64,000 bases of DNA, taken from positions 2,588,501 through 2,652,500 of the forward strand of contig NZ_JPON01000001.1 in the NCBI RefSeq assembly GCF_000733935.1, in the 5' to 3' direction. The notes beneath the pieces are model-generated. The model worked only from the letters and a program-made list of their open reading frames with translations. It searched no databases and was not told the DNA's origin. Positions within the stretch are counted from its first letter, which is position 1. Each line of letters starts with the position of its first letter. Position numbers and translations under genes: made by a program. The stretch is from Methylomarinum vadi. Its GTDB lineage: Bacteria > Pseudomonadota > Gammaproteobacteria > Methylococcales > Methylomonadaceae. Shown here piece after piece: positions 4,036 through 26,215 of this stretch.

Positions 4036-4053
4036 AGTTATTCCTTGAGCCAT

Positions 4054-4873: not shown

Positions 4874-4892
4874 TTTAGGGCGAGGATTCTAT

Positions 4893-5657: not shown

Positions 5658-5672
5658 GAGAGAGGAATATCG

Positions 5673-6911: not shown

Positions 6912-6935
6912 TTTATAAAATAAAAGGTGTTTGCG

Positions 6936-9380: not shown

Positions 9381-9460
9381 TGCTTCAAAACGGTAATCCT
9401 AACGATCATGGCGCTTGGGCGCCACCCCAGCCAATGAAAGTGTCAAACGCCTGATCGTTC

Positions 9461-9492
9461 CCTCTCCCCAGCCCTCTCCCAGAGGGCGAGGA
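9461..9492. repeat. REP-like hairpin
   Basis: The stem GCCCTCT (9471-9477) / AGAGGGC (9481-9487) has a 3-base loop and is preceded by a CCCTCTCCCC stretch. It resembles the short extragenic palindromes that recur in many gammaproteobacterial genomes, but only one copy was noticed in this window. Confidence 0.4.
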
Positions 9493-9586
9493 GATTAAGG
9501 TACACTTCGCGACTTTCATCGTAAAAAGAACATTACTATTCAGTGTAATTTAGGTTAATCTAAAAAATCTGAAATGCTTTACAGTA

Positions 9587-10002: not shown

Positions 10003-10183
10003 TAATCAGCAAACCGAAGGTGAGGATCGTAAAACTTTCATATCCGGTTCGCATAAAAGATAACAACAAGGTTTCAGGACGGTATTCTTTCTAAACTTTA
10101 TTCGGTCAAAAGTCTTTCTTGTATTACCCTGGCGCAACCCAGAAAATAAATACCTTTGATTTATCGTAACCCATTGAATTTTA

Positions 10184-10205
10184 TGGAGCCAATGGCAGAG
10201 TCGAA
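10184..10205 (+). repeat. Partial copy of tRNA-Thr 3' end (putative att site)
   Basis: TGGAGCCAATGGC (10184-10196) is identical to 26140-26152 at the tRNA-Thr 3' end including the CCA complement. It is followed by A plus GAGTCGAA where the tRNA has GG plus GAGTCGAA. This is what a tRNA-targeting integration leaves at the far end of an island. It sits in an otherwise gene-free stretch, 10003-10318. Confidence 0.6.
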
Positions 10206-10318
10206 TGAATTTCTCAAGCCATTGAAATTATTACAAATAGAACCAACTAACCAATTAAATAATCACAAATTAAACTGTAATAATTAAAGGAAATCAGACG
10301 AGTATGAGGTAGAGTCCA

Positions 10319-10987
10319 TTAATCTCCACCGCATCCTCCATCACAGCCTCCACCGCTATCACCATCGGACCAATCGCCAAAGCCGTCGGGAGAACCGCCG
10401 AAATCTCCACTAGAAAAATCACCACCGCAATAGGGAGTGGCACCTTGGCTGTCGTTTCGGACAGCCCGGCAATCCGGGACGTAAACAAAACCATCCGCGA
10501 TATTGAGTCTTTTGTCGATGTCGAATAACAACGGCAATCTGCTGGGTTTGCGCGGGTCTATATTTTCCTCTCGGCAAGTTTGCCACCAGACACGCCGCAA
10601 ACCGGTGTTGTTTTGCCTGTTTTTGCCTAGCACTATGGCTGGCGTGTGGTGTAGAAACCGTCCGAACGCTCTCTTGCAGAATGCATCATAGTGGCGAGTA
10701 TACAGAATTAGCTCATGCCAAAGGTCGTCGACAACTTGCGAGGGCATCGATACAAATCGGCAACCGCCCTTCAAATAGGCCAGGAAAAATTGCCGTAACG
10801 CTCGGCCAACCAATTGACAGTCCTTCGGCGACAATTCCGGCCGGCGCTTTTGCAACTTGTCATATAAACCTGGCGGGAAAGTATAGGTGCGAATAAAGTC
10901 GACCCTGTACCGCATCCGTCGCCGGTGCACGACGACCACCAAAAATATCAATAATGTGACAACCACTCCTATAACAACGATGCTCAT
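10319..10987 (-). CDS. Membrane-anchored protein with Gly/Cys-rich tail
   Basis: Function unknown. The 222-aa protein has one N-terminal membrane segment (SIVVIGVVVTLLIFLVVVVH, residues 2-21) and a basic stop-transfer. A soluble domain follows with VVDDLWHELILYTRHYDAFC and FGRFLHHTP, a His-containing motif that recalls the D-x-x-W-H-x-x-x-L signature of glycine-rich-domain (DUF1399-type) proteins. The last 45 residues are Gly/Asp/Ser-rich and end GGGCDGGCGGD. The start at 10987 has GGAAAAG just upstream; a longer frame begins at 11029. It is divergent from the membrane protein at 11159 and lies inside the proposed island. Confidence 0.65.
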   Translation of the reverse strand: MSIVVIGVVVTLLIFLVVVVHRRRMRYRVDFIRTYTFPPGLYDKLQKRRPELSPKDCQLVGRALRQFFLAYLKGGCRFVSMPSQVVDDLWHELILYTRHYDAFCKRAFGRFLHHTPAIVLGKNRQNNTGLRRVWWQTCREENIDPRKPSRLPLLFDIDKRLNIADGFVYVPDCRAVRNDSQGATPYCGGDFSSGDFGGSPDGFGDWSDGDSGGGCDGGCGGD

Positions 10988-11158
10988 GAACTTTTCCGAT
11001 TGAAAACATGGGTTATAACTATAGATCAAATGAATAAGCCATTAATCATCGGGCGACAGAGCTCAATTCAAAAGTAGAGTGATTTGCTGCTTTAATGTAT
11101 AAGGAAAGCAGACCAAGATAATAAAAAGTCCGGCTCACTAAAAACGAGGAACATCATT

Positions 11159-11635
11159 ATGGCAACCGATTTTAACAGATTGAAGTCAGTCATCAGACGT
11201 TGGACCTTAATTTTAGGAGTTAGCCAAATCACTGTCGGTTGCTTGATTGGGTTCATTCCTCCTGATGCCGTGTTATGGTTTCGCGGAATTGTAATGGCGC
11301 ATATCGAATTTACCATCAATGGAATTCTGATGATCGTATTCGGTTTTTTGCTCAATGAGCTGCATCTAAACCATATTTCGCTTAAGGGGTGGTTTACGGC
11401 TTTACAAATCGGCACTTGGACAAATGGAATGGCAGGACTGATCGGCGCCTTTATTGGTGCTTCGACACCGCTCATGCCGACAATCAACGAAAAATTCCCT
11501 CCTCCTAATGGCACCGATAACACGATTGTGACAGGTTTTCTTATACTCTGTAGCGTGGCCATCGTGACAGCACTACTGCTCACGCTTTACGGCCTGATTC
11601 GATCTAGCACAATTGACGAGAATCAGAATGTCTAA
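11159..11635 (+). CDS. Four-helix membrane protein, hydroxylaminobenzene-mutase-like
   Basis: 158-aa integral membrane protein with four hydrophobic segments (about 17-35, 43-64, 75-97 and 120-145). The segment VMAHIEFTINGILMIVFGF followed by W-F-T-A-L-Q-I-G-T-W-T-N-G resembles the H-x-E-G-x-x-N-G and W-x-N pattern of the small HabA/HabB hydroxylaminobenzene mutase family, but I cannot confirm the enzyme activity. The Ile-Asp-Glu-rich C-terminus is probably cytoplasmic. It is preceded by GAGGAA at 11145-11150. It stands alone and is divergent from the Gly-rich protein gene. Confidence 0.6.
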   Translation: MATDFNRLKSVIRRWTLILGVSQITVGCLIGFIPPDAVLWFRGIVMAHIEFTINGILMIVFGFLLNELHLNHISLKGWFTALQIGTWTNGMAGLIGAFIGASTPLMPTINEKFPPPNGTDNTIVTGFLILCSVAIVTALLLTLYGLIRSSTIDENQNV

Positions 11636-11640
11636 CAACG

Positions 11641-11769
11641 TTTTGGGAAGTATTCCACATCTTGGCGGATGTGTTTATCGATGGCGAAAGCCTGGCAGCG
11701 AGTTTGATCAGCAATGGGCTTGCCAGGGAATATCACGGCGGGAAGAGATTGGGGTGGTGTTCTAATTAG
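11641..11769 (+). pseudogene. Thermonuclease (SNase-like) C-terminal fragment
   Basis: A 42-codon frame ending at TAG 11767-11769 reads ILADVFIDGESLAASLISNG followed by LAREYHGGKRLGWCSN. This matches the C-terminal end of staphylococcal-nuclease-type proteins (V-x-A-x-V-x-V-D-G-x-x-L-x-x-x-L-I-x-x-G-L-A-R-x-Y-x-G-G-K-R-x-x-W-C). No start codon or N-terminal OB-fold is present; the fragment abuts the stop of the preceding membrane-protein gene. It is a decayed remnant within the proposed island. Confidence 0.6.
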
Positions 11770-11918
11770 TTTTAAAACACCTAAGTTTGGTATTCGAAAG
11801 GTTCCAATTGAATACACTAATGATGTGACAGGTTTCTTATTATCAAAGTAGGAAGCAGTTAACATTCTCTATACTCAATTATTAATGCGATGCTCTCAGC
11901 AGTAGTTGAGTGATAAAG

Positions 11919-12020
11919 ATGAAAGAATCAGCCTGGAAACGGCCAGCATGGATTACCGCGATAATAGGAGTTGTCAGTGCTTTCCTGACGATTGCTGATA
12001 TTATTGGAAATTATATTTAA
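11919..12020 (+). CDS. Possible 33-aa single-pass membrane peptide
   Basis: ATG at 11919 opens a 33-codon frame, MKESAWKRPAWITAIIG then VVSAFLTIADIIGNYI. It has a basic N-terminus, a tryptophan at the membrane edge and one hydrophobic helix, a typical small membrane protein layout. A weak purine stretch (GATAAAG) precedes it. It is isolated in a 540-bp gap before the PerM-type gene, and expression is unproven. Confidence 0.4.
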   Translation: MKESAWKRPAWITAIIGVVSAFLTIADIIGNYI

Positions 12021-12178
12021 CGAATTTTATTGCCTTAAAGATTTGATTCGATTCCACCAATACAGATTTGTTTCTGAATTCGGCCTTTGCCGTGATCTAA
12101 ACAGTGCAATTTCTCCGCGCACTCTTGATAATATAAAGTCCTTAGCTATTATCCTTAGAATGATTAGGATGGAAAGTT

Positions 12179-13237
12179 GTGCGAGCGTTCAATGTATCAG
12201 GCTTATATTTCGCCGTCGTATTGCTGTTTTTGCTTTATCTGTTATGGATGATGATACAGCCATTTTTAGCGGCCATCATCTTTGCTTCAATCATTACGGG
12301 TAGTGTCTATCCGTTCTATAAGATACTGCTAGATAAAACAAAATTAACGCGACAGCTTGCCGCCATCGTCATTTGTTTTTTGATCATCGTTGTCGTTTTT
12401 TTTCCGACCATCTATCTTTCCTTCGTGCTTTCTAAGGAAGCCGTGACCTTATATGAAGATTTGGTTCTGCCTCTCAGCAGCGAGTCGATAAAAGATTTTT
12501 TCATGGGCAACGGCCATGTTGCCAGAGCATTGCAAAAATTGAACACGATGCTCGAAGTCGAGGTACATTTCGATAATTTAATTAATGAGATCGTTAGCCA
12601 GGTTAGAAATATTTCCGCTCTGGTGATCGTGACGATAAACAATATCGTTGAAAATATCATCAATTTCTTATTCAACTTCATGATCATGATCCTGGTCATT
12701 TATGCATTATTGACCGAGGGCATTCCGCTGAAAAAATTTATGTTAAAGCTTTCTCCGCTGCCAGATGATCAGGAAGAATTGATTATCGAGAAATTCAATC
12801 AAATGAATTTCGTAACTCTCGTTTGTAATGGAGTCGGCGGATTGATACAAGGTATTTTGGCAGGAATCGGTTTTTGGTTGGCCGGAATCAATCTAGTGGT
12901 GTTATGGACGACTATCATGATTATATTGGCGTTCATTCCGTTGTTGGGAATCTCGATAGTCTATATTCCGGCCTGTATCTATCTGGCCAGTAAAGGTCAG
13001 ATTGTTTCCAGCATCATGCTGTTTATCTATTGTTCTGTGGTGGCGTTTGTCACGGAAAACTGGTTCAAACCCATCTTTATTGGCAATAGAATTCAGATCA
13101 ATTCGCTGTTTGTGTTGTTCACCATTATCGGTGGGATGACGGTTTTTGGCTTAGGCGGGATTTTCTATGGCCCGATCATTGCGATTCTTTTTTTGACGAT
13201 GGTCGATTTGTACCATAAATTTTATTCAAGCCAGTGA
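12179..13237 (+). CDS. AI-2E/PerM-family membrane transporter
   Basis: 352-aa polytopic membrane protein with about eight hydrophobic segments. The family layout is clear: two helices at the N-terminus, a central extramembrane helical region (about 85-150), then FNFMIMILVIYALLTEGIPL, the GVGGLIQGILAGIGFWLAGI segment and the C-terminal GGMTVFGLGGIFYGPIIAIL signature. The family is named for autoinducer-2 export (TqsA) but members have diverse substrates, so the cargo is not known. The start is a GTG at 12179 with AGGA eight bases upstream. It is monocistronic and lies in the island. Confidence 0.82.
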   Translation: MRAFNVSGLYFAVVLLFLLYLLWMMIQPFLAAIIFASIITGSVYPFYKILLDKTKLTRQLAAIVICFLIIVVVFFPTIYLSFVLSKEAVTLYEDLVLPLSSESIKDFFMGNGHVARALQKLNTMLEVEVHFDNLINEIVSQVRNISALVIVTINNIVENIINFLFNFMIMILVIYALLTEGIPLKKFMLKLSPLPDDQEELIIEKFNQMNFVTLVCNGVGGLIQGILAGIGFWLAGINLVVLWTTIMIILAFIPLLGISIVYIPACIYLASKGQIVSSIMLFIYCSVVAFVTENWFKPIFIGNRIQINSLFVLFTIIGGMTVFGLGGIFYGPIIAILFLTMVDLYHKFYSSQ

Positions 13238-13870
13238 TGACAGAGCGATGACGGCGTTAATTCTCAAAGTCGTCATTGCAAATCCACTGATGATTTGTAA
13301 GCAAGAGAATCGAAACCTATTTTTAATTCTGATCATTGGTCTCTAATGCGGAGTTTTGTCGTCTTTGCCGGATACATCTTCGTGATTGCGGTGACGAATA
13401 CCTGGACCACTATATGATCGAACAACTCGCGGACAGAACCGAAGCGGGAGAATCGGTCGCGGGAGCCTTGTTCATGGGCGGGGCGACTTCTCTGATAGTT
13501 ATACATACAAATTTTGTGAACGTCCTGTTAGTGTCGGTTTTACTCCTTCAATTTTGACTGAGCAAGTTCGGCCAATTGCTGACACAGAACAGACCTTTAT
13601 AAATGGCTGCAAACTGGCTCATTGCCGCCAATGATTTTACTTGGGTCAAAATCAAAGGGTTTTAGCTTCCTTTAGTTGTGGCCCAGCAATTTCTGTATAG
13701 TGCGAATATCTCTTTGGAACCTGTTGGTAAAGTTGGGCGGACCATATATCCCCCCATTTTTTGACCCATGTTGAATGCGTAGAATACAAAATAGACCTAT
13801 TCCTATACGTTAGATTTCAGGTCAGGCTTTTAGTACTTGCTCTAATGCCGGGAGATTCCTGGTTGAACCT
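13238..13870. other. Gene-poor gap with a degenerate repeat
   Basis: About 630 bp without a convincing gene. A 73-codon frame at 13336-13557 has no recognisable family and no ribosome site. At 13541-13583 lies a 43-bp segment about 79% identical to 17840-17882, so part of this gap is repeat-derived. The rest shows nothing I can name. Confidence 0.5.
13541..13583 (+). repeat. Degenerate dispersed repeat, copy 1
   Basis: A 43-bp stretch centred on TTCAATTTTGAC, aligned without gaps to 17840-17882 with nine mismatches. Both copies lie in gene-free gaps of the island about 4.3 kb apart in the same orientation. Confidence 0.4.
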
Positions 13871-14830
13871 TTACTTAGTTGAATCCTGAATCAAGGTTTT
13901 TATGTCTCGTATCGGAGGAGCGCCGAATAAACGATTGTACTCCCGACTGAACTGGGAGGGACTCTCATAGCCAACCTCGAATGCGGCTTGCGAAGCTTCG
14001 AGATGGCTCGTCAACATCAACCGCCGCGCTTCATTCAACCGCATTCTTTTTTGGAATTGAAGCGGACTCATGGCTGTCATGGAACGAAAATGTTTGTGAA
14101 AGGCTGAAACACTCAATCCTGCTTTGCCTGCCAACTCTTCGACTTTTACTGGCTTGCTGAAGTTATCCTTAAGCCAATCGATTACCCGGGCGATTTGATA
14201 GCCATGATTTCCAATGGTGGAAATTTGTCGCAAGCGTGGCCCCTGCTCACCCGTTAGCAGGCGATAAAAGATTTCCTGTTGAATGAGTGGTGCCAGAGCA
14301 GGGATGTCGTCCGGCTGTTCGATAAGGTCGAGCAGCCGATTAAAGGCATCAATCAGAGGGACGGAGACTTCACTGATCGCTATTCCAAGACGGTCTTTTG
14401 TTGGGGCCTGCGATGACATGTCATTGTCCAGCATCAGTTGGCCGATCATGCGAAGGTCCAGTTCCATCGTTAATCCCAAGTAAGGCTTTTCGCCACTGGC
14501 CTCTAGAATTTGCGCGACCACCGGAAGGTCGACGGAGGTAATGAGAAACCTGTGAGCATCGTAGATATAGACGTCCTCGCCAAGAAACAGACGTTTTCGT
14601 CCTTGCCCAATCAGGCAAATGCTTGGAGCGAGCATGTAACTCGTGGGCTCGGTCGGTGCATCCCAACGATGCAGGCTGAGCCCACGAATCGGGGTATCGA
14701 GGCTGTTTTTTCCTTCGGTCCATCGCGCAATCCTTTCCGCCATTCTTGCCGCTCCACTGTTGATTCCACTGGTCTTTTCGTTCTGTGTATTTGAACTATC
14801 GCTAGCCATTGAACTTCCTAGTCTTTGCAT
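13871..14830 (-). CDS. yqhC: AraC-family regulator, YqhC-like
   Basis: 319-aa transcription regulator. The N-terminal AraC_N-type sensing domain (residues about 45-200, with APSICLIGQGRKRLFLGEDV) is followed by a C-terminal double helix-turn-helix: VEELAGKAGLSVSAFHKHFR, then MSPLQFQKRMRLNEARRLML and the signature FEVGYESPSQFSREYNRLFG. It is divergent from a YqhD-type aldehyde reductase, the same arrangement as E. coli yqhC-yqhD, where YqhC activates yqhD in response to toxic aldehydes. The regulatory role here is inferred from that arrangement. The start may be 14830 or the internal ATG at 14809. Confidence 0.85.
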   Translation of the reverse strand: MQRLGSSMASDSSNTQNEKTSGINSGAARMAERIARWTEGKNSLDTPIRGLSLHRWDAPTEPTSYMLAPSICLIGQGRKRLFLGEDVYIYDAHRFLITSVDLPVVAQILEASGEKPYLGLTMELDLRMIGQLMLDNDMSSQAPTKDRLGIAISEVSVPLIDAFNRLLDLIEQPDDIPALAPLIQQEIFYRLLTGEQGPRLRQISTIGNHGYQIARVIDWLKDNFSKPVKVEELAGKAGLSVSAFHKHFRSMTAMSPLQFQKRMRLNEARRLMLTSHLEASQAAFEVGYESPSQFSREYNRLFGAPPIRDIKTLIQDSTK

Positions 14831-15005
14831 TATCGCTATTGATGCCTGCTAACGAGTCTAGCACCGCCATGTTTGATTCGACAACGCCGATATCTCAAGG
14901 CAAATAGAATCAGGCAAGAAAAGAATAGAAACGCGATACCGTGTTTTTTGTTTCACTGCTTAAATGGATGGCGAATCCTATTTAATTGAAAGCGGAGAAC
15001 CAATC

Positions 15006-16196
15006 ATGCAATTTGAATATCAAAATCCGACCCGTCTCGTTTTTGGTGCCGGCTCTCTGCCCCGCTTGGGCGAAATGGCTGGGCAATATGGCAAGCGCGC
15101 ATTGCTGGTGACCGGTGGTGGCAGCGTTAAACGCATCGGTACGTTCGACAGGGCACTCAAGAGCTTGAAAGATGCCGGTATCTCGGTATTTGAGTGTGAG
15201 GGCGTGGAGCCGAATCCCAGAATCTCATCGGTGAAACGCGGCGCGGCAATCGCACGCGCAAACGAATGCGACCTGGTCGTTGCGCTGGGCGGTGGCAGCA
15301 CCATGGACGCCGCCAAGGTCATTGCGGCAGCCGTGTTATATGACGGCGATCCATGGGATATGATTTTCCACGGTCAAGCGGCCCCGCATATTCCAACCCA
15401 AGCGCTCCCGATGATCGCGGTTCCGACCCTGGCAGCCACCGGTTCCGAGATGAACTGCAGCGCAGTGATTTCCAATGAGGAGACGAAGGAGAAATCCTTT
15501 GTCTCGGCAAATTGCCTTTATCCGAAGGTGGCGCTGCTCGACCCCGAATTAACGGTGAGTGTTCCCAAAGACCAAACCGCCTACGGTGTTTGCGACCTGA
15601 TGACGCATATCACCGAGAGCTACTTCAATGGGGTCGGCGATACGCCAATTCAGGACCGTTTTGCGGAAGGCGTCATTTTGACCGCAATGGAATATGGCCC
15701 TAAAGCTATCGCTAACGGCAACGATCTGAATGCGCGTGCGCAGATCCAATGGGCAGCGACCGTCGCATTGAACGGCTGGATTAATTCCGGTAGCGGCGGT
15801 GCGGGGTATCCGGTTCACATGATCGAACACACCGTCTCGGCCTATCACGACATTACCCATGGCGCAGGCCTGGCAATCATCAACCCGGCGTGGATGCGAT
15901 TTGCCGCGCAAATCAACCCGTCTAAGTTTGTTCAGTTTGCCGAACGCATTTTTGGCTTTTCTGCAAACAGCCCGGACGATATAGAGTGCGCTCTCGCCGG
16001 AATAGACCGTTTCGAGTCGTTTCTAAAATCCATCGGTTGTCCGACGCATCTATCCGAAATGGGCATCGATGCACAGTTGATCGAGACCTATGCCAAGGAA
16101 ACCTTGCGGATTATTCATGATGAGAACGGCCGACTGCCGGCCCTTCCGCCAATGACCGAAGCCGATATCGTCTCGGTGTTGCGTGCCGCGGCGTAG
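15006..16196 (+). CDS. yqhD: NADPH-dependent iron-type aldehyde reductase/alcohol dehydrogenase, YqhD-like
   Basis: Group III metal alcohol dehydrogenase that reduces short and reactive aldehydes in the cytoplasm. The 396-aa protein carries the TGGGS turn (residues 36-40) used for NADPH in YqhD, the second nucleotide motif ALGGGSTMD (93-101), and metal ligands at Asp197, His201, His271 and His285 in DLMTH, HMIEH and HDITHGAGL. E. coli YqhD is 387 aa. The start at 15006 has GGAG nine bases upstream; the longer frame from 14964 is less likely. It is divergent from the AraC gene and followed after 59 bp by the cupin/CMD gene, forming a probable aldehyde-response cluster. Confidence 0.88.
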   Translation: MQFEYQNPTRLVFGAGSLPRLGEMAGQYGKRALLVTGGGSVKRIGTFDRALKSLKDAGISVFECEGVEPNPRISSVKRGAAIARANECDLVVALGGGSTMDAAKVIAAAVLYDGDPWDMIFHGQAAPHIPTQALPMIAVPTLAATGSEMNCSAVISNEETKEKSFVSANCLYPKVALLDPELTVSVPKDQTAYGVCDLMTHITESYFNGVGDTPIQDRFAEGVILTAMEYGPKAIANGNDLNARAQIQWAATVALNGWINSGSGGAGYPVHMIEHTVSAYHDITHGAGLAIINPAWMRFAAQINPSKFVQFAERIFGFSANSPDDIECALAGIDRFESFLKSIGCPTHLSEMGIDAQLIETYAKETLRIIHDENGRLPALPPMTEADIVSVLRAAA

Positions 16197-16255
16197 TGAA
16201 CTACCTTGGGAAAAACCCTGTTCTGATTAAACGGTAATCGATAGGAGCTTTTGAT

Positions 16256-17422
16256 ATGCCAACGAAAAAGCGTTTTTTTAGCACGATGATGCTTGCCTTG
16301 ACAGGTTGTGTGACCAAGTTCGGATTGGCGGCCAAAGCGAAGCCTGCTGGCCAAACCTTATATCAAGCCGGCTCGCAAAAGTCTTTCAAAGGACCGGAAG
16401 CCTATTTTACCGGCGAGGTTCGGGTCGACATAATATTTCCCGGCAATGAAACAGCCCACTATTCCGGCGCTTATGTTACCTTTCAGCCCGGCGCCAGAAC
16501 GGCATGGCATCTTCATCCGGCCGGGCAGCATATGGTCGTTACCTCCGGCGTCGCACTTACGGGAACCCGAGACGGCAAAGTCATCGAATTCAACGTAGGC
16601 GATGCCGTTTGGTGTCCGCCGAATATCGATCACTGGCACGGTGCGACGCCGGACGAGCAGATGACCCATCTGGTGATCACAGGTAGCCTGGATGATCAAA
16701 ATGTGGTCTGGAAGGAAAAGGTTAGCGATGCGCAATATTACGCGAGTCGCCAAACGAAGGAGAAGTCCTCGATCAATGTTGATGCTTTGACTGCAAAGCA
16801 GCAGAGCATCGTACCGATTGCAGCCTTTACCGCAAGCGGAGACTTGGAGCGATTGAATAAGGCAATAAAAGCCGGACTGAATGCCGGCCTGAGCGTTAAT
16901 GAAATCAAGGAAATTCAAATTCATCTCTACGCTTACGCCGGATTTCCTCGCGCGTTGAACGGTCTTGCCACGCTGATGACAGTCCTCGACGAGCGAAAAG
17001 CCGAGGGCATTCAGGATGAGGCCGGCAAATCGGCAAGTTCGTTGCTCACGGATAAGAGCAGCACCGAATTGGGCAAGGAAGTACAAACCCGGCTGGTCGG
17101 CAGGCCGGTTTCCGGACCGCTATTCGATTTTGCGCCCGACATCAATCGGCTTCTGCAAAGCCATCTATTTGGCGATCTGTTCACCCGCGGCATTCTGGAT
17201 GATCAGAGCCGGGAAATTGCCACGCTCTCTGCACTGGCAAGCATCGATGGCGTTGATTCTCAGCTCAAGGCACACGTCGGAATCGCATCCAACGTTGGGC
17301 TCACGCAGAACGAGCTAACGGCGCTGGTGACAGTGCTGAAAGAGACGGTGGGGAAACAGGAAGGAGGTCGAGCCGAACAGGCGCTCATGGCAGTTCTATC
17401 CAACCGAAGTAAAAATCCATAA
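16256..17422 (+). CDS. Exported cupin-carboxymuconolactone decarboxylase fusion
   Basis: 388-aa protein. A hydrophobic N-terminal segment with TMMLALTGC (residues 10-18) followed by AAKA could be a signal peptide or lipobox. A cupin domain (about 50-150) has TAWHLHPAGQHMVVTSG and a second metal-type motif PNIDHWHG. Two carboxymuconolactone-decarboxylase-like (AhpD-type) segments follow (about 180-265 and 290-385, with IQIHLYAYAGFPRALNGL and SREIATLSALASIDG). The first repeat lacks the C-x-x-C of AhpD, so a peroxidase role is unlikely. Similar fusions are found beside yqhD-type reductases. The substrate is unknown. GGAGC precedes the start. Confidence 0.78.
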   Translation: MPTKKRFFSTMMLALTGCVTKFGLAAKAKPAGQTLYQAGSQKSFKGPEAYFTGEVRVDIIFPGNETAHYSGAYVTFQPGARTAWHLHPAGQHMVVTSGVALTGTRDGKVIEFNVGDAVWCPPNIDHWHGATPDEQMTHLVITGSLDDQNVVWKEKVSDAQYYASRQTKEKSSINVDALTAKQQSIVPIAAFTASGDLERLNKAIKAGLNAGLSVNEIKEIQIHLYAYAGFPRALNGLATLMTVLDERKAEGIQDEAGKSASSLLTDKSSTELGKEVQTRLVGRPVSGPLFDFAPDINRLLQSHLFGDLFTRGILDDQSREIATLSALASIDGVDSQLKAHVGIASNVGLTQNELTALVTVLKETVGKQEGGRAEQALMAVLSNRSKNP

Positions 17423-18142
17423 TGCAATATATAACGCTATCACTATTCAAGCAGAAAAATTTACTCCATAAGAATAAACTGATTGCGGTGAGAATACGGA
17501 CTTCGACGGGCGAGCGAGCCTCGTCCTCTTGTTTTCACCTAATCAAAGGTTCAACTGCGTTTAGGTGGCCGATTTGGCTACGGTTTCCTTCAGACCCCGC
17601 ATTGGCTCGGCATTATCGTCAACCCCCTTGGAAGCAGTACCAAGTTTCTTGGGAGGGACACCCTTGCCTTTGTATACATCTTAGCTTCTCACAGTGCATT
17701 GGCTGAACTTTCATCACCTATCTGCCATGCCAGCGCACCGCACTAGTTGGTTCACTCGCCATTGAATCTAGGTGTTGAATGGCGGCTCATCGAACCACTG
17801 CCGACATTGAACGCAAATCTTCGAATATCAAATAGGGGTTACACTTTCAATTTTGACAGATCAAATTCTGCCAGTTGGGGACTGCCACGTTGGTAAACAC
17901 TAGTGACAGCAGTTGATTCGTGAGTTGCCTATTAGTTACCGCTATAGATGCTTGATTGTAAGACGTGGTAGCGTTTTCACAAAAAATATATGCTATTTGA
18001 CTTCGAATATTCGTCGATCTTCAGGAATAGGTTATTACACGCAATACGAGATCAGTCCCAGTGAGATTTACTTTCCATTGTTACCAACAATCGCCTCTTT
18101 TTGCTTTTCTATCCATCGTTCTGAATGCCAGTTGCGCAAGGC
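17423..18142. other. Gene-free gap with decayed sequence
   Basis: About 720 bp with no intact gene. A stop-free minus-strand segment at 17561-17680 has a protein-like composition (KGKGVPPKKLGTASKGVDDN) but no start and no family I can name. Positions 17840-17882 are the second copy of a degenerate repeat. It probably marks a junction between acquired modules. Confidence 0.45.
17840..17882 (+). repeat. Degenerate dispersed repeat, copy 2
   Basis: Aligns without gaps to 13541-13583, 34 of 43 positions identical by eye. It lies in the gap before the hydrolase gene. Confidence 0.4.
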
Positions 18143-20176
18143 TCACAGGTAATACCGTGGAATTGTGATGTCCCAGTTCCGGGAAAAAACCCGTTTTTCT
18201 CCCTCCCAGGCATCCAGCTCCGCCCAGATGTAAAAATTGTCGGCGTCTGCGGTCAATATCGTATGGGTAGTTGTCTCTACCTGCCAGTCGCCGCGACGGA
18301 AAACGCGTTTTGTTTTCGTCTCGCCTTTCGGTGAAGTGAAGTCATCGTCCTGATAGGTATACCAATTACGCGTTGAATTGATGATCTCGAGATCGATTTC
18401 ACTGATGAAAATACGTCCCTGATCCTGAATGACTTCGAGTATCGAACGATCGTCGGCCAGGTCGCGATGCACCAACCAGTTATGATTTGGCGGCTCCAGG
18501 TGGGTCATTTCTAGTGGTCGTCCCCCTTCCGGCTGCTCAAATGCAATTGTCTCGTCAATCTCGCTGCACGGCCTAACCGGCAGTCGAAGAGCAGAATCCG
18601 CCGGCTTGATGGTCAATCGCACGGGTTCCGGTGAAGGCCATGCCAGGGCCCAATAGGAGGTGGAAACGCTCACCCGGAGGCGGTGCCCCTTGGGGAAAAC
18701 CTGGGCAATGTGATTCAGCGGTACGGTTACCGGAATAAATTCGCCGGGGGTCAGAGCCTGCGGCCGATCACTTCCGCAGTGGTGGTTGAGGTTGAACAGA
18801 CCATAGGTGACCCTGGTGATCTTGTCGTCGGGTGCGACGTCACAAAGCCGCACCGCCACCATCGCAACGGCCCTGTTGCTGGACACCCGTAGTTCCAATT
18901 CCGGCGCGCCAAGAATCTCAAGATCCTCGGTGAGTGTCCCGCTTTCAAAAACCAACGCACCGCCGTCTTCCTCCCGCTGATCGTGGGGCAGGTCCGGCGC
19001 GGCGGTGTAGGAACACCATTTGCCGGCAAAGAGACCGACGCTCAAGGGTGACTGAATTGACAATTCTCCACCGGCATCTGCCGGTCGGCTCTCATCTTCC
19101 CGCAGTAATCGCCAGGGAGCCAACCGAAATTCGCGGGTTTCTATGCGTGCTGAAGGCCACTCCTGCTCCCCGACCCAACGTCCGGGCCGCTCGTGATAAT
19201 AGCAGGTCGGCGGTACACTATCCTGCATCCAGGCCCGCAGAATCGGCTCCGCCATGATGCCGTTATCACATCCTTTCAGCCAATGGTCAAACCAGCGCAG
19301 GCTCTCCTGCAAAAAACCGATGGCCGGACCGGGAATTCCCTGGTGGGGATATTTGTGACCCCAAGGACCGATCAGTCCCTGTCGCGGCACCTCCAGGTGT
19401 TCCAGCAGGCGGAATATTGCGTTGGTATATCCATCCGCCCAACCTCCCACAGCCATCACTGGGCAGCGGATGGCACCGTAATTCTCACACACGGAGCCGT
19501 GCCGCCAGTACCCATCCCTGGACTGATGCCGAAGCCAGGTCTCCAGCCACAGGCCGCTGCCATCCAACCGTTCCAGCCACATGTCTCGCCACCGCTCGCC
19601 GACAATCTCCGGATCCGGAGGACAACTGTTGACGGAAAACATGGTAGTGGATTCGGAGAGGTTGTCCGTCAGTAGACAGCCGCCCATGTAGTGCATATTG
19701 TCGGCATAGAGATCGTCGGTGGAGCAGGCCGTCACAATTGCTTTGAGCTCTTCGGGCCGACGCGAGGCTATCTGCAGTGCATTGAATCCACCCCATGAGA
19801 TACCCATCATCCCAACGTTACCGTCACACCAGGGTTGCCGGGCCAGCCATTCGATGACCGCGACACCGTCGCTAAGCTCCTGCTCCCGATACTGGTCCAG
19901 CATGACACCGTCGGAATCGCCGCTGCCCCGCAGATCGACACGAATGCAGGCGTAGCCGTGGCCGGCCAGGTATTGATGGTTAACGGCATCCCGGGCCCGG
20001 GTCATATCTCGTTTTCGATAGGGAATATATTCGAAGATGGCGGGCACGGGGCTCTGCTCGGCTTCAGACGGAAGCCATAGCCGGGCTGCCAGCCGTCCAC
20101 CATCCGCCAAGGGTATCCAAAGGTTCTCGATAATATCAACCCGATAGGGTAGATCGGAAGGTTCGCACTGTCGCAT
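18143..20176 (-). CDS. CocE/NonD-family alpha/beta hydrolase (S15 X-Pro peptidase type)
   Basis: 677-aa serine hydrolase. An N-terminal alpha/beta-hydrolase domain has oxyanion-side YIPYRKRD, DLRGSGDSDG (81-90) and the nucleophile elbow MMGISWGGF with Ser127; the Asp is likely in GGWADGYTNA and the His in GPWGHKYPHQG. The C-terminal jelly-roll domain typical of cocaine esterase and PepX begins near residue 380. Family members cleave acyl esters, glutaryl-amides or Xaa-Pro peptides. Only two bases separate it from the upstream ATP-grasp gene, so the two are surely co-translated. There is no signal peptide, so it is cytoplasmic. The pair looks G+C-richer than its surroundings. The substrate is unknown. 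Confidence 0.85.
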   Translation of the reverse strand: MRQCEPSDLPYRVDIIENLWIPLADGGRLAARLWLPSEAEQSPVPAIFEYIPYRKRDMTRARDAVNHQYLAGHGYACIRVDLRGSGDSDGVMLDQYREQELSDGVAVIEWLARQPWCDGNVGMMGISWGGFNALQIASRRPEELKAIVTACSTDDLYADNMHYMGGCLLTDNLSESTTMFSVNSCPPDPEIVGERWRDMWLERLDGSGLWLETWLRHQSRDGYWRHGSVCENYGAIRCPVMAVGGWADGYTNAIFRLLEHLEVPRQGLIGPWGHKYPHQGIPGPAIGFLQESLRWFDHWLKGCDNGIMAEPILRAWMQDSVPPTCYYHERPGRWVGEQEWPSARIETREFRLAPWRLLREDESRPADAGGELSIQSPLSVGLFAGKWCSYTAAPDLPHDQREEDGGALVFESGTLTEDLEILGAPELELRVSSNRAVAMVAVRLCDVAPDDKITRVTYGLFNLNHHCGSDRPQALTPGEFIPVTVPLNHIAQVFPKGHRLRVSVSTSYWALAWPSPEPVRLTIKPADSALRLPVRPCSEIDETIAFEQPEGGRPLEMTHLEPPNHNWLVHRDLADDRSILEVIQDQGRIFISEIDLEIINSTRNWYTYQDDDFTSPKGETKTKRVFRRGDWQVETTTHTILTADADNFYIWAELDAWEGEKRVFSRNWDITIPRYYL

Positions 20177-20178
20177 AG

Positions 20179-21495
20179 CTATTCTTTCCTGCTTCCTTCC
20201 ACCGCGCGAATCTCAAAGGACAGTAACCCCTCCGCCTGGTGGTATTTTGTCAACATCTCATGGTCGGTTTGTCCAGCCACCTCAATTTCCGCCAGCACGT
20301 AGCTGTAGGCGTCTTGGTCTACCAGAGAAGAGAGATACTGCCCCTTATTTACTTTTACCCGTACATCGGTGTCCGGCTGCAATGTTTTCAACTGGTCCAG
20401 TTCCTCATCGAGCGGCACCCGGATCACGACGCCATCCTCCTGGCTGTAATACCGCCGCAGGAATTTTGCCGCGTGCTTATAGGGACCTTTTCCGTGCTGA
20501 AAATGAGGCTGATCGCCAAGGGCTACGTGAACGGCAATCTCGTGGTTCGACATTCCATCAACTTTTTCGAATTGATAGCAGTGGGATTGGGAGATCCGTG
20601 GATTGATTTCGATGATCCACAACTTATCGGTTGCCTTATCCCAGAAAAACTCCATGTTGAAACAGCCATTGTCAAAACCTATCTGCAGCAACACTTTCTC
20701 AGCCACTTCGAGCGCCCTTTGTTGAATAGCGTGGGGAGCCTGCGAGGGGTATTCATAGCGCAGGAAACTCTTGTGATTGTGGTCGCGCACCATATCTACC
20801 ATGCCGTGTGCGTGAAACCGTCCTCGCTGAACGCTGCCTTCAGGCGCAATTTCGAGACCGTGGATCAATTCTTCGGCGATCATACAGTTACCATCGATCC
20901 CTGCCACTTCGGGAGGAAGATCGACCCTCATGAGGAGGGTATTGAACGGATCGCCGATACGCCGAATCTTTTGGCGAACAATCTTTAACGCCCGCTCCAG
21001 ATCACGGGGCCCGTTAATACGGAAGCCCAGCATCGAGCCGTAGCCCTTGATCGGCTTTATCCAGAAAGGGTAATCCAGCGTGACGCTGGCCACCGCGCTT
21101 TCATCAAACGGGTTTAGGGCACAAAAAGCCGGTGTGTTTTCCGGCACAATTTTTTGTTGCTCAATTCGGCTCCAGTATTTGTGGGAGCACTTGAGAACAG
21201 CATGGAGGGAGGGAGAGGGAAGCCCCCATTCCTCGCAAAGTACCGCCGTCATGGAGGTGGCCGGAAAATCCCAGTGACAGACAATGGCGTCCACAGACCC
21301 GCTGAACGAACGCAAAATCCGCCTGGCCTTGTCCAATTTTTTGTCAATCACGTAATTGTGTTGATATACGACCTCGTCAGATCGCAACAGAGGGTGGAAG
21401 TCAAACCGGTCTGCATCGGATATCTGTAATAGATCCGGGGCGTGTCGCTCGTCGTAACCTAGCACAAAGATATTTCTTTTTTGCAATTTTTCCAT
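20179..21495 (-). CDS. ATP-grasp family carboxylate-amine ligase
   Basis: 438-aa ligase of the ATP-grasp fold. Visible parts are an N-terminal pre-ATP-grasp domain (to about 110), the nucleotide-lid segment YPFWIKPIKGYGSMLGFRI, MIAEELIHGLEIAPEGSVQ, and the metal-binding core NMEFFWDKATDKLWIIEINP then RISQSHCYQFEKVDG, with the family Glu and Asn-Pro-Arg. Such enzymes join a carboxylate to an amine or thiol through an acylphosphate. The start is ambiguous between GTG 21498 and ATG 21495; GAGG lies upstream of both. It is first gene of a two-gene operon with the S15-type hydrolase. The product is unknown; a peptide or amide is the natural guess. Confidence 0.82.
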   Translation of the reverse strand: MEKLQKRNIFVLGYDERHAPDLLQISDADRFDFHPLLRSDEVVYQHNYVIDKKLDKARRILRSFSGSVDAIVCHWDFPATSMTAVLCEEWGLPSPSLHAVLKCSHKYWSRIEQQKIVPENTPAFCALNPFDESAVASVTLDYPFWIKPIKGYGSMLGFRINGPRDLERALKIVRQKIRRIGDPFNTLLMRVDLPPEVAGIDGNCMIAEELIHGLEIAPEGSVQRGRFHAHGMVDMVRDHNHKSFLRYEYPSQAPHAIQQRALEVAEKVLLQIGFDNGCFNMEFFWDKATDKLWIIEINPRISQSHCYQFEKVDGMSNHEIAVHVALGDQPHFQHGKGPYKHAAKFLRRYYSQEDGVVIRVPLDEELDQLKTLQPDTDVRVKVNKGQYLSSLVDQDAYSYVLAEIEVAGQTDHEMLTKYHQAEGLLSFEIRAVEGSRKE

Positions 21496-21835
21496 CACCA
21501 ACTGACCTCGCAGGAGTCTTCAAAGAACTCCTCTATTTACCGGGAACCACTCTGGCGCCAATTTGTCTTCCTGATACTATTGATATTGATGATACCCGCC
21601 AGGGGTAACCTGCTCGTCCAAACCACCCTATGCCATGACGTGTTAGACATTATATGTCTCATATGCTTAGTTACGATGGTTTTCAACTTCACCAAGTTAA
21701 TGACTGACTAATTCGTATGTTGGACGAAGCCGCTAACGCGGAGAAAAGCGGCAGTAGCCGGTAATTTATAAAATGTAATCTCACGCCCTCTTTTAAGAGG
21801 GATTATTCCATGACGAATCATGAGGTTACGCGACA
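21496..21835. other. Gap between ligase operon and IS91-like element
   Basis: About 340 bp. A hydrophobic plus-strand frame (21481-21711) overlaps the ligase gene start and has no ribosome site, so I do not call it. Its right part, with CCGCTAACGCGG near 21730, probably holds the left (terIS) end of the IS91-like element, but I cannot fix the base. Confidence 0.4.
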
Positions 21836-22743
21836 ATGACAACATCATTCGAATCCCATTTCAAGCAAAACTATCAAAGCCATCTGAAACACCTCAAACT
21901 TAAAGGGTTGCAGCCCAAGACGATCGAGGCCTATGCCCGTGCGATTCGACGTATCGGCCAGTATTTCAACGAAGACATCAATGCGTTGACCGAACAGCAA
22001 CTGACCGATTATTTCACCGATTTGCTGGAGTCGCATTCTTGGAGTGCGGTCAAGTTGGACCTGTACGGTCTCAAGTTTTATTACACCCATGTACTGCGCA
22101 AGCCTTGGGTCGCGCCGCAGTTGGTCAAGCCGCCGAAGGCGCAACGTTTGCCGGATATCGTCACTGTCGACGAGGCGCGGTGTATCTTCCAGTCCACGCG
22201 TATTCTCAGTTACCGGGTGTTCTTTTTCACGCTCTACAGTCTAGGTTTGCGCCTCGGCGAGGGATTGCGTCTTGAGGTTGGGGATATCGATGCCGGTCGC
22301 CAACGCGTGCATATCCGAGATGCCAAGGGCAATAAGGATAGACTGGTGCCGTTGCCGGCTGCCACCCTGGATTTGCTACGCCGCTTCTGGCAAGTTCACC
22401 GGCATCCGGTCATGTTGTTTCCCAATCGCCATGGCGGTTTGAAGGGCGCGCAGCGCGCGCAGAGCCCTTTGGATCGCGGTGGCGTGCAAAAGGCTCTGCG
22501 CCAAGTCGCGCAAGACTGCGGTTTAAAAAAAAGATTACCCCGCACTGTCTGCGGCATAGCTATGCCACACATTTGATTGAAGCGGGCGTCGATCTACTGG
22601 AAGTGCAGAAAATCCTCGGTCACCACAGTATCCTCACCACTGCCCGCTATACTCACCTGACCGACGGCACGAATCAAAATACCGGCCAGTTGATTAATGC
22701 CTTAATGAATGGCTTCGACATCGACTGGGGGGCGGTCAAATGA
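21836..22743 (+). CDS. IS91-associated tyrosine recombinase, needs -1 frameshift
   Basis: The zero frame from ATG 21836 encodes a SAM-like core-binding domain and the first catalytic Arg (GLRLGE) and Lys (KGNKDR), then stops at 22576. A run of eight A at 22525-22532 lies in the zero frame as TTA AAA AAA AGA. Slipping back one base there gives [17 protein letters not shown] and continues through [20 protein letters not shown] to a stop at 22741-22743, a normal 302-aa recombinase. The HxxR, second His and nucleophile Tyr exist only in the shifted frame. The stop overlaps the transposase start (ATGA). It could be programmed slippage, a disabling mutation or a homopolymer miscall. Confidence 0.8.
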
Positions 22744-23837
22744 TCTTGCTTTCCGCCATCATCCAAACCTTCGAAGCCGAGTTTCTGGTCGCTTACCAGG
22801 GTCGCTTGTCACCCAGTCAGCGTCAGGCGCTGGCCGCGATGAAACACTGCCGCACGTCGCAAGGCCCTGTGATGTTGGCGCAATGCGATGATTGCGATCG
22901 GCAACGCTTGGTGCCGCATTCCTGCGGCCATCGCAGCTGCCCGCATTGCCAGTCGCACGAATCGCAACAATGGCTGGAAAGGCAGTTGCAGAAGCAGGTG
23001 CCGGCCGAATATTTTTTGCTGACGTTTACTTTGCCCAAAGAACTCAGGCCGTTGGCCTGGCAACAGCAACGTACGTTGTATGATCTGCTGATCCGCTGTA
23101 GTTGGGATACCGTCAACACCTTCACCCGCAACGATCAACAGCTTCAGGGCAATGCCGGTGCTATTGCTGTGTTGCATACCCATTCCCGCCGATTGGATTA
23201 CCATCCGCATGTACACTTGGTGATGCCGGCGGCCGCCATCGATCCTGATAAACGACTGTGGCGCACCAAACAGGGTAAAAAGGGCCGGAAAGGCTATTTG
23301 TTCAATCACAAGGCAGTGGCCAAAGTGTTTCGGGCCAAATTGCTTGAAGCGATCTCGCAGGCCGGTTTGACATTGCCTGACTACTATCCGCAACAATGGG
23401 TCGTTGACGTCAAGTCGGTCGGACGCGGCGATAAAGCCTTGGTTTATCTGGGACGTTATCTCTATAAGGGCGTTATCCAGGAAAAGGACATTATTGCCTG
23501 CCGAGATGGCCAAGTAACCTTCCGTTACCAGGACAGCAAAACCAAAAAGTGGCAGACTCGAACACTACCCGGCGTGAAGTTTCTGTGGCTGATGCTCCGC
23601 CATGTTCTGCCCAAAGGCTTTAGGCGGACTCGCAACTTCGGCTTTTTGCACCCCAACAGCAAACGGCTGATTCGTCTGCTGCAAGTCTTGCTCGGCGTCA
23701 ATCCCAATCGTGCTATCGCTTGGCTCAGGCCCCGCCCGAAACTCCAATGCCCATGTTGTGGTGGAACCCTGCAGATTATCAAAACGCGCATTCTCGGTTC
23801 TTCGGCTGTCATGGCATTGAATTCGACCAAAGCGTAG
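22740..23837 (+). CDS. IS91-family transposase
   Basis: 365-aa rolling-circle transposase. The N-terminal zinc-binding region has CDDC (49-52) and [10 protein letters not shown] (61-70), the HUH motif is HPHVHLVMP (155-163), and the catalytic tyrosine segment YLGRYLYKG (236-244) has two candidate Tyr residues. A second zinc-like cluster, CPCCGG, is near the C-terminus. Length and order fit intact family members of about 350-400 aa, so the protein appears complete. It is translationally coupled to the recombinase gene. Confidence 0.92.
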
Positions 23838-24279
23838 AGGCAAAACCGGTTATGTAAGCGGCATTTCTCACTGACCCAAACCGATCATCGGGCATTTTAG
23901 CACCGAGGCTTTCGTTCGGTCTGAATTCAGGGCAAAATGCCGCTAAAATCCGAAATTCCGGGTGTGATGATCAGCATCACGCCCATTTCAGCCCGTTTAT
24001 CGACGTCAACGCTTGAAATGGGCCAACACATCCCCCAATCCTTCGAAAAGCTATTTTCTTATATAACGCTCCCTCCGAATACCGGGCTTGTCCAACAAAC
24101 GGTTCAGATTGTGGCTCGCTCCGCGATTACAATCTAACCTTATTCGTTGTGGCATTTTCTAACCAGAGCCGGATAGGGAAACTCCCCCTAACCCGAATAT
24201 TTCATGAGAGAGGCGGGCATGCTTGTTGATATTTGATAAAATTCAGTTGGTTAGATTGAATTTAACCAACAAGTAGCCC
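23838..24279. other. Putative oriIS end plus left end of IS1380 copy
   Basis: No gene. The left half holds AGCGGCATTT (23857-23866) with its inverse AAATGCCGCT (23935-23944), GTGATG/CATCAC around 23970, and GCCCATTTCA (23981-23990) with TGAAATGGGC (24014-24023). The right half, from the CCCTAACCCGAATATTTC stretch near 24184, probably belongs to the IS1380 element's left end. Confidence 0.45.
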
Positions 24280-24801
24280 ATGACAAATTGTACTCCAGCT
24301 CAAATAGAATTTCCTCCCCTAAAACGCCGTAAAATAGCGGCTCAATTCAGCGGTGGGGCAATCACCAGCGATGGCGGCGTGCTATTGTTAAGAACGGTGG
24401 ATCAACGGTTACGATTAACGGAACGGATTGCCCAACACATTCCGGATTCTCGCGATCCGGCCAAAATCCAACATCCCTCTGTCGACTTGCTACGGCAAAG
24501 AGTTTATGGGTTGGCCTGTGGTTATGAGGATTTGAATGATCACGGCACGCTGAGAAACGATCTGGCCTTACAGACGGCGGTAGAGCAAGACCGGACATTA
24601 AGTAGTCCATCAACTTTGTGCCGGTTCGAACAGCGGGCGGATCGAGGGTTGATGTGGCGGGTTCATGAGGAACTGGTGGCGCAATTCATCGCCTCGTATG
24701 AGACGGCTCCGCGATCCCTGATCCTGGACTTAGACGCCACCGACGATCCGCTGTATCCCCCGTCTATCAAGGGATACGGCGATTTCACGTTTTCAAAGTA
24801 A
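24280..24801 (+). pseudogene. IS1380-family transposase, truncated
   Basis: The first about 155 residues match IS1380 transposases: FSGGAITSDGGVLLLRTVDQ, LLRQRVYGLACGYEDLNDH, TLSSPSTLCRFEQRAD and LILDLDATDDPL, which contains the first catalytic Asp region. The family then continues with H-G-x-Q-E-G and about 280 more residues, but here the frame changes to an unrelated tail (YPPSIKGYGDFTFSK) and stops at 24801. The break is near 24756. The element is therefore dead in cis, probably cut by a later rearrangement. The AbiEi gene begins 127 bp on. Confidence 0.82.
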
Positions 24802-24928
24802 GTTTTTTTATCGTACTCCTAACTACTAGTTACGAAAATACATCTCGTTCATTTTTTACCTATGTACATTTTTAATGAACAAGCTAAAATAATGAACAAG
24901 TACTAATTATAGCAATAGAGATATTAGA

Positions 24929-25972
24929 GTGAAAACGAATGATGTCGGACTAATAGACAAAGCAGTGGAGAGCCTCAGGGAGCAGACAGGCTTTACCATT
25001 GAGGTTGATCGTTATTTCCATAACACCATGGACGCAACAGGTAATTTGAATACCGGCGCTAGAGAAATACCTTTGGCTATCGAATGTAAAAAAAGAGTTA
25101 CTATTCCGATCTTAGCGAATATACGCAATCAGTTTGTTCACTTAATCGAGGCAACTGAAAAAGGGATATTGATAGCCGACTATATAAACCCGGTCATGGC
25201 TGAGCGACTCAAGGCGATGGATATTTGGTTTCTTGACACTGTCGGCAATGCTTATATCAATGCCTTGCCTGTTTATATCTATATCAAAGGCAATAAGTCA
25301 GTCGAAGAACAAACGACTAGTCCAAAAATGAATCGTGCATTCAGCCCGATGGGTTTGAAGGTAGTTTTTGCTCTTCTATGCCACCCGGATCTAGTCAAAG
25401 CGCCCTATCGAGATATTGCGCAAACGGCGGGTGTTGCACTGGGAACAGTCGGCTGGGTATTCAGGGATTTAATCCGATTGGGACATATTATTGAGATGAA
25501 GACTCTCGGGCGCCGCTTGAAAAATCGGAAAAAACTATTGGAACGTTGGCTGGTTGCCTACCCAGAACAACTCAGACCCAAGCTTGTAGTAGGACGATAC
25601 CGAGCACCTGATCCGGACTGGTGGCAAACAGTGGTTTTACATAATCTGTATGCCTATTGGGGCGGCGAAGTGGCCGCAGATAGACTGACTAATTATTTAA
25701 AACCGCAAACGGTTACTATCTATGCCTGGGAAAAGCGGGTCCGTGACCTAACGCGTGATCTAATAAGATGGTACAAACTACGCAGAGACCAAAACGGCGA
25801 TATCGAAATCCTCAAAGCGTTTTGGGATGTCGAACATGAATCTGATCGAACGGATATCGTCAATCCGATACTTATCTATGCGGACTTGATGGCGACCGGC
25901 GACCCGAGAAACATCGAAACAGCACAAATCATTTATGAGCGAGAACTTGCAGAACATTTCCGGGAAAATTAG
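24929..25972 (+). CDS. AbiEi-type antitoxin (type IV TA family)
   Basis: 347-aa protein of the AbiEi antitoxin-like family. The N-terminal part (residues about 40-115, IPLAIECKKRVTIPILANIR and KGILIADYINPVMAERL) looks like a restriction-endonuclease-like fold. The middle is a winged helix (YRDIAQTAGVALGTVGWVFR). The C-terminal domain has WGGEVAADRLTNYLKP and the closing signature VNPILIYADLMATGDPRNIE. Start is GTG 24929. Its last 38 bp overlap a short frame that looks like the N-terminus of the cognate nucleotidyltransferase toxin. Family members repress their own operon; binding sites are not visible. Confidence 0.75.
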   Translation: MKTNDVGLIDKAVESLREQTGFTIEVDRYFHNTMDATGNLNTGAREIPLAIECKKRVTIPILANIRNQFVHLIEATEKGILIADYINPVMAERLKAMDIWFLDTVGNAYINALPVYIYIKGNKSVEEQTTSPKMNRAFSPMGLKVVFALLCHPDLVKAPYRDIAQTAGVALGTVGWVFRDLIRLGHIIEMKTLGRRLKNRKKLLERWLVAYPEQLRPKLVVGRYRAPDPDWWQTVVLHNLYAYWGGEVAADRLTNYLKPQTVTIYAWEKRVRDLTRDLIRWYKLRRDQNGDIEILKAFWDVEHESDRTDIVNPILIYADLMATGDPRNIETAQIIYERELAEHFREN

Positions 25973-26114
25973 CGAAGCGATCGTTTCAATTTACGCGCTG
26001 ATCGCCGACATAGCTGAACAAAATAACTATGTCGACCGTCTTTCCGCGATTCGGGCCGTTGACGATGAGTCGATTGGCTACGATTTAGCTACGGCCAATA
26101 AAAAAGGCTTGTGA
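25935..26114 (+). pseudogene. Truncated AbiEii-like toxin remnant
   Basis: ATG 25935 opens 59 codons, MSENLQNISGKISEAIVSIY then ALIADIAEQNNYV, in the position and 38-bp overlap expected for the nucleotidyltransferase toxin of an AbiEi/AbiEii pair. The N-terminal helix fits (I-S-G-x-hydrophobic helix), but the G-A-x-A-R-D nucleotidyltransferase motif that should follow is absent and the frame stops at 26114, 26 bp before the tRNA gene. It is probably cut at the island border; with so short a match, identity is tentative. Confidence 0.45.
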
Positions 26115-26139
26115 CAAAACCGCTGCAAACCTTGTAATC

Positions 26140-26215
<76 letters not shown>

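Follow-up and report, generated by a model that had tools for sequence, protein, structure and literature searches.

A probable remnant of an integrative element at the tRNA-Thr(CGT) gene of Methylomarinum vadi, crippled at both ends

Why does the 3' end of a tRNA gene of Methylomarinum vadi recur, in the same orientation, at a distance from that gene, and what is the DNA that lies between the two copies? The stretch analysed here, called the window throughout, comprises 64,000 nucleotides (bases 2588501-2652500) of a single-contig genome of 4,335,162 bp (4.34 Mb), whose closest named relatives, by comparison of HisF, are methanotrophs of the Methylococcales such as Methylobacter tundripaludum. 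Its sole tRNA gene detected by ARAGORN is tRNA-Thr(CGT), beside hisI. An earlier note on this DNA had taken the interval between the tRNA gene and the displaced copy of its 3' end for an acquired genomic island. Our analysis leads us to regard positions 10206-26139 as very probably what remains of an integrative element, inserted at tRNA-Thr(CGT) and later crippled at both ends. All positions are those of the window; G000 is the label of the window's own genome and other G numbers denote relatives, among them G002, a member of the same genus. The features at the two ends of the interval are the following.

10124-10140, plus strand: possible decayed repeat pair TTACCC-N5-CAACCC of period 11, a weak candidate for the end of an older element (repeat search)
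10168-10183, plus strand: 16-bp flank of the displaced copy, like the tRNA-Thr 3' flank in the congener G002 (alignment)
10184-10205, plus strand: displaced, truncated tRNA-Thr 3' end, a left attachment remnant (alignment, genome-wide 13-mer search)
25935-26027, plus strand: first 31 codons of AbiEii, the toxin gene of a type IV toxin-antitoxin pair, the remainder being deleted (alignment to G002)
26028-26111, plus strand: 28-codon C-terminal tail of a tyrosine integrase, continuing the AbiEii reading frame, with the stop codon at 26112-26114 (alignment)
26077-26093, plus strand: right-end repeat pair GCTACG-N5-GCTACG of period 11, putative integrase arm sites (repeat search)
26098-26139, plus strand: tRNA terminator-like sequence between the integrase tail and the tRNA (alignment to an integrase element of the own genome)
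26140-26215, minus strand: tRNA-Thr(CGT), the attachment-site gene, with its 3' end at 26140 (ARAGORN)

The recurrence itself was borne out. The tRNA-Thr 3' end at 26140-26162 is found again at 10184-10205 in the same orientation, with 21 of 23 alignment columns identical (13 identical bases, one gap, one substitution and 8 identical bases). That such a match is unlikely by chance, as the earlier note had claimed, was likewise confirmed: when overlapping 200-bp bins were scored on both strands, the best bin touching neither place reached 23, versus 34 for this match, and chance is thus a poor explanation. The first 13 bases of the match, TGGAGCCAATGGC, occur exactly twice in the genome, both times here and in the same orientation. 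The similarity is not confined to the tRNA, since 10168-10205 aligns at 87% over 39 columns (expectation value, E, 1.7e-4) with G002:C2:944692-944730, which is the tRNA-Thr 3' end of the congener together with its 3' flank, and thus runs 16 bp past the tRNA, leftward to 10168. A fortuitous match could be argued from the mere 13 contiguous bases and from the absence of the expected inner half of the copy; set against the score, the uniqueness of the 13-mer and the extension beyond the tRNA, it is so improbable that we set it aside. A profile of the 80 bp lying 3' of tRNA-Thr at 66 sites from other genomes, the tRNA itself being excluded, ranked 26063-26140 first and 10110-10183 second on both strands of the window, in register and with weak E-values of 5.5 and 9; with shorter profiles (18, 30 and 45 bp), the flank of 10184 ranked only third, third and sixth. 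The inner half of the tRNA copy, which is present in the copies of relatives, is absent at 10184: the copy ends after 22 nt, while the copies examined in relatives are mostly 43-58 nt long and end at about the anticodon.

At the right end, an integrase has left its last codons beside the tRNA. From 26028 onward, the window aligns to the C-terminus of a 349-codon integrase encoded elsewhere in its own genome (E 2.6e-12); 26028-26111 encodes YVDRLSAIRAVDDESIGYDLATANKKGL, followed directly by the stop at 26112. The alignment of the window to the AbiE genes of G002 stops at 26027, one base before the integrase alignment starts, and, judged from these alignments, a deletion fused the first 31 codons of AbiEii, in frame, to the 28 that remain of the integrase. 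An integrase of G071 that shares 78% identity with that of the own genome ends 31 bp from tRNA-Thr, as the tail in the window does, and in G179 an integrase of the same family with a complete reading frame also ends just short of tRNA-Thr. The earlier statement that no dedicated integrase remains needs correcting in detail, as it overlooks this 28-codon tail. The tyrosine recombinase gene at 21836-22576 was considered as the island integrase and rejected, being part of a multicopy IS91-type element. As an observation of its own, the integrase frames at four other loci (L220, L248, L260 and L266) extend into the tRNA terminator, the hairpin of which appears to encode their last residues.

The position of this tail is one at which mobile DNA repeatedly arrives, and tRNA-Thr(CGT) is an integration hot spot in the relatives of M. 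vadi. Among 55 genomes with a similar tRNA-Thr gene, the own genome included, 13 carry a second copy of the tRNA 3' end (at most one mismatch in a 24-nt pattern) on the same contig and strand. All 13 copies lie on the 3' side of tRNA-Thr, at distances of 5.4-78 kb, and in eight of the pairs the identity of copy and tRNA extends for 46 nt or more, counted from the tRNA 3' end, and in the other five for 11-37 nt. Owing to its deletion, the copy in the window escapes this 24-nt pattern. On other contigs, further copies are present in nine more genomes; the one looked at, in G071, is decayed. Elements may also stand in tandem, as in G032, where the displaced copy has an integrase tail of the family found in the window on its outer side and a second integrase on its inner side. 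The setting beside the his genes is less widespread: a single alignment running from the tRNA through hisI to hisF was obtained only with G002 among 60 relatives, and tRNA-Thr(CGT) lies within 20 nt of hisI at seven loci, among the 43 of 80 named loci that were scanned, six of them in Methylomonas records and one in an unclassified Methylococcales bin. None of 40 relatives (up to 7 candidates scored per genome) was found to carry the interval as a unit, only pieces of it being present. The hot spot, this sporadic distribution and the location of AbiE and other cargo at different places in the congener G002 uphold the earlier view that the interval is acquired DNA marked by a displaced tRNA 3' end. 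The locus thus shows a tRNA gene as target, a direct repeat of the 3' portion of that tRNA (degenerate and truncated), and sporadic presence in relatives; of an integrase gene of its own, the 28-codon tail only is present.

The ends of these elements have a further regularity. The pair GCTACG-N5-GCTACG lies 63 bp from the tRNA, and an exact period-11 repeat, 7 nt or longer and beginning 63-77 bp away from the tRNA end, was found in 28 of 66 flanks versus 1 of 557 control windows; the flanks, from other genomes, adjoin either tRNA-Thr(CGT) genes or displaced copies, and the control windows were taken from the same loci. We presume, from general knowledge of tyrosine integrases, that these repeat pairs are integrase arm-type sites. 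Their sequences vary from element to element, and in 13 of 13 elements the right-end sequence is found again, as a direct repeat with 0-4 mismatches, 153-196 nt away from where the displaced copy starts; random stretches equalled this in none or one of 200 trials for each element. Clear period-11 pairs are present in 11 of these 13 elements, the right-end unit of G033 and G065 not being a clear pair.

Two integrases suggest how the repeats may change. Those of G031 (L126) and G079 (L299) are 96% identical in their C-terminal two thirds and 49% identical in their N-terminal third, and the left ends of the two elements agree at 92% identity over about 157 nt beyond the start of the copy, are then unalignable by blastn over about 310 bp and then return to 90% identity. 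The unalignable part contains the repeat pair and the N-terminal domain of the integrase, and the repeats differ (CGTAGCACC versus GTAACCCC). It looks as though the recognition (arm-binding) domain had been swapped together with its recognition site. Across 55 non-independent pairs, repeat similarity correlates with integrase identity both for the N-terminal third (Spearman 0.44) and for the rest of the protein (0.37), values too close for the correlation by itself to point to the N-terminal domain. On balance we lean slightly towards the view that unrelated integrase elements at tRNA-Thr share the geometry of their ends and not a recognition sequence, the N-terminal domain and the repeats forming a swappable module. 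Neither the period-11 pair nor the N-terminal swap was found described in a limited search of open-licence papers.

The history that best accounts for the interval would run as follows. A tyrosine integrase, recombining near the anticodon loop, would have placed an element in the 3' end of tRNA-Thr(CGT), and with it would have come a replacement tRNA 3' end, a terminator, a repeat pair and the integrase whose tail, like these, still stands beside the tRNA; the old tRNA 3' end would have been pushed out leftward by the insertion. At the right end, a later deletion would have left the beginning of AbiEii fused to the 28 C-terminal codons of the integrase. At the left end, the displaced tRNA copy would have lost its inner half, probably by deletion, and the crossover core and the left repeat pair would have gone with it; this loss is indicated by the sequence, because the inner half of the copy is absent and the right-end repeat pair has no partner. 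The middle of the interval would have filled with insertion sequence (IS) elements and accessory genes. Both ends would then derive from one element, and the order of the losses given here is our reconstruction. With both ends crippled and nearly all of its integrase gene gone, the element would now be unable to move by itself, which supports the earlier impression that the island looks fixed.

The contents of the interval, besides the features of its ends, are these.

10319-11029, minus strand: open reading frame of 236 amino acids (no Pfam or NCBIfam match)
12179-13237, plus strand: AI-2E-type transporter gene (homology to G002 over 12025-13494, 85%)
13871-17706, on no single strand: AraC-type regulator (minus strand), iron alcohol dehydrogenase, cupin/carboxymuconolactone-decarboxylase protein and a small open reading frame (scans of open reading frames)
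18124-21628, minus strand: CocE/S15 hydrolase and ATP-grasp protein, a 3.5-kb block (93% to a G002 block)
21717-24148, plus strand: IS91-type element with a tyrosine recombinase gene (21836-22576) and a Y2 transposase gene (22740-23837) (profile and genome search)
24280-24801, plus strand: truncated IS1380-type transposase, covering profile positions 2-152 of 435 (profile match)
24929-25972, plus strand: AbiEi-type antitoxin gene, open, 347 amino acids (Pfam PF09952; 81% to G002)

Of the contents that the earlier note had listed, the IS91-type transposase, the IS1380-type fragment, the AbiE remains, the alcohol dehydrogenase cluster and the hydrolase/ATP-grasp pair were recovered. The IS91-type element has moved recently, as its six other copies in the genome are 99.9-100% identical. 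No relaxase or conjugation gene was found by Pfam in the 15 open reading frames of the interval, a below-cutoff TrwC match lying inside the IS91-type transposase only, and PADLOC left six of the seven proteins submitted unmatched, the AbiEi of the window among them. By its sequence matches, the interval is a mosaic. AbiE and other cargo of the island are located elsewhere in the congener, where the AI-2E locus lies in another region and its neighbour genes are mostly absent from the window; the block 18124-21628 is sharp-ended and 93% identical to an unrelated G002 locus, the his block being less similar (84%).

Such a composition could also result from a patchwork, in which the tRNA copy would be the relic of an unrelated event and the genes would have been brought piecemeal by IS elements and rearrangement. 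Three parts of the interval (18124-21628, 93%; 12025-13494, 85%; AbiE, 81%) indeed match three different loci of G002, the IS91-type element has its nearly identical copies elsewhere, and the G+C (guanine plus cytosine) content of the island genes spans 40-58%. A mosaic cargo is nevertheless usual in such elements, and a patchwork leaves aside that the tail of an integrase belonging to a family of tRNA-Thr elements stands on one side of the interval and a displaced tRNA end on the other, ordered and oriented as expected; we consider it unlikely. The integrative-element reading has its own difficulties, and several observations weigh against it. The pair GCTACG-N5-GCTACG has no partner near the left copy, where the best match within 10206-12100 has 7 mismatches in 17 positions, nor any partner with at most 3 mismatches elsewhere in the window or in the 40 kb to its left, and the common origin of both ends is accordingly not proven. 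At about 10213-10231, some 48 bp to the right of the first, lies a second tRNA-Thr-flank-like motif that is unexplained. No near relative carrying the interval was found. With up to 30 candidates scored in each genome, none of 9 relatives has the left flank next to the his genes; the matches were scattered and gave no empty site, so that the left edge is unproven; the left flank of the congener maps elsewhere in the window genome. Nor is the interval clearly set apart by composition, for which the earlier note had proposed comparing G+C and codon use with the flanks: G+C is 49.6% in the island, 46.8% in the left flank and 48.5% in the right flank. Codon scores, for which the right-flank genes themselves served as reference, are low to the left of 10184 as well as to its right, and those of the pilin genes at 3565-9305 are no higher than those of the island. 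Neither measure lends support as a mark of the island. As for the missing partner, G071 and G179, where elements with an integrase of this family were searched over 14-15.5 kb, likewise showed no second repeat pair at the left end.

An alternative for the left edge, compatible with the integrative-element reading and refining it, is accretion. Position 10184 would be the junction of two elements, the older of which, with its end just left of 10184, was already in tRNA-Thr; the acquired zone would then reach further left, its outer edge being lost. The flank at 10168-10183 matches the one between the own element of G002 and its tRNA, resembles the tRNA-side flanks of several elements in several genera, and is unlike the terminator-type flanks at other tRNA-Thr genes. 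Because this flank is tRNA-side-like and tandem elements occur at tRNA-Thr, as in G032, an older element may meet a younger one at 10184. Accretion in tandem has also been documented for tRNA genes (PMC4891358). The island-like codon scores of the pilin genes (0.595-0.616) would suit this possibility, although low codon scores are common in pilin genes. Against it, the candidate repeat pair left of 10184 is weak, its exact run being only 4 (a length reached by 3737 of 5000 random 80-mers), and has no partner at 3 or fewer mismatches in the window and the 40 kb to the left; neither an integrase nor a further tRNA copy was detected in the left part of the window or in the 40 kb beyond; and the flank could be the native tRNA 3' flank. 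Accretion thus stays a tentative reading, for which we would give somewhat less than even chances. The sequence at 10130-10330 has no plasmid match. Further left, a repeat at 9396-9525 recurs at several other places in the own genome and in G002, with up to 94% identity.

Other elements place this remnant among known ones. The asn-tDNA islands of Klebsiella pneumoniae (PMC4891358) are integrated at tRNA genes by tyrosine integrases, undergo tandem accretion and in some cases lack an integrase of their own. The window shares with them a tRNA target, a displaced copy of the tRNA 3' end, an integrase at the end and IS elements; unlike them, it has tRNA-Thr(CGT) as target and a Methylococcales methanotroph as host, its left copy is truncated, and its integrase is reduced to 28 codons fused to AbiEii. 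A sibling element within the same genome, G000:C1:1170880-1182379 (L283, L284), is 11.5 kb long, retains a complete integrase frame and stands at a non-tRNA site. One of its ends carries a 49-bp tRNA-Thr(TGT) 3' end, the other sharing only 20 bp with the tRNA, and its repeat pair is present at both ends with 0 and 1 mismatch. The tRNA-Thr(TGT) fragment at 1170 kb had been considered as a simple displaced copy, a reading rejected since the fragment belongs to this element. Sibling and window have in common the integrase family, the sequence of the repeat pair and the arrangement of the right end, in which integrase, terminator and tRNA-Thr 3' end follow in this order, whereas only 163 bp of the sibling align to the interval by blastn. 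The island of the congener (G002, C2:937250-944707), with a displaced 46-bp copy and a matching repeat pair at both ends, occupies the same tRNA beside hisI in the same genus; it differs in its integrase, which is of another family (409 amino acids, with an arm-DNA-binding domain) and lies beside the displaced copy, and in that AbiE is outside the island, on the other side of the displaced copy.

As a kind, the island is ordinary, and the points of interest are its readable decay and the geometry of the repeat pairs. It shows how an integrative element becomes fixed, with traces at both ends still legible after the loss of the integrase. If the geometry is indeed shared while the recognition sequences differ, matching repeat pairs would show which ends belong together in decayed arrays such as that of the window, and an element-specific repeat pair of fixed period and position would be a practical means of matching up the two ends of an old or nested insertion when the tRNA repeat by itself leaves the choice ambiguous. 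For this methanotroph family, tRNA-Thr(CGT) emerges from the analysis as a site at which mobile DNA has landed repeatedly.

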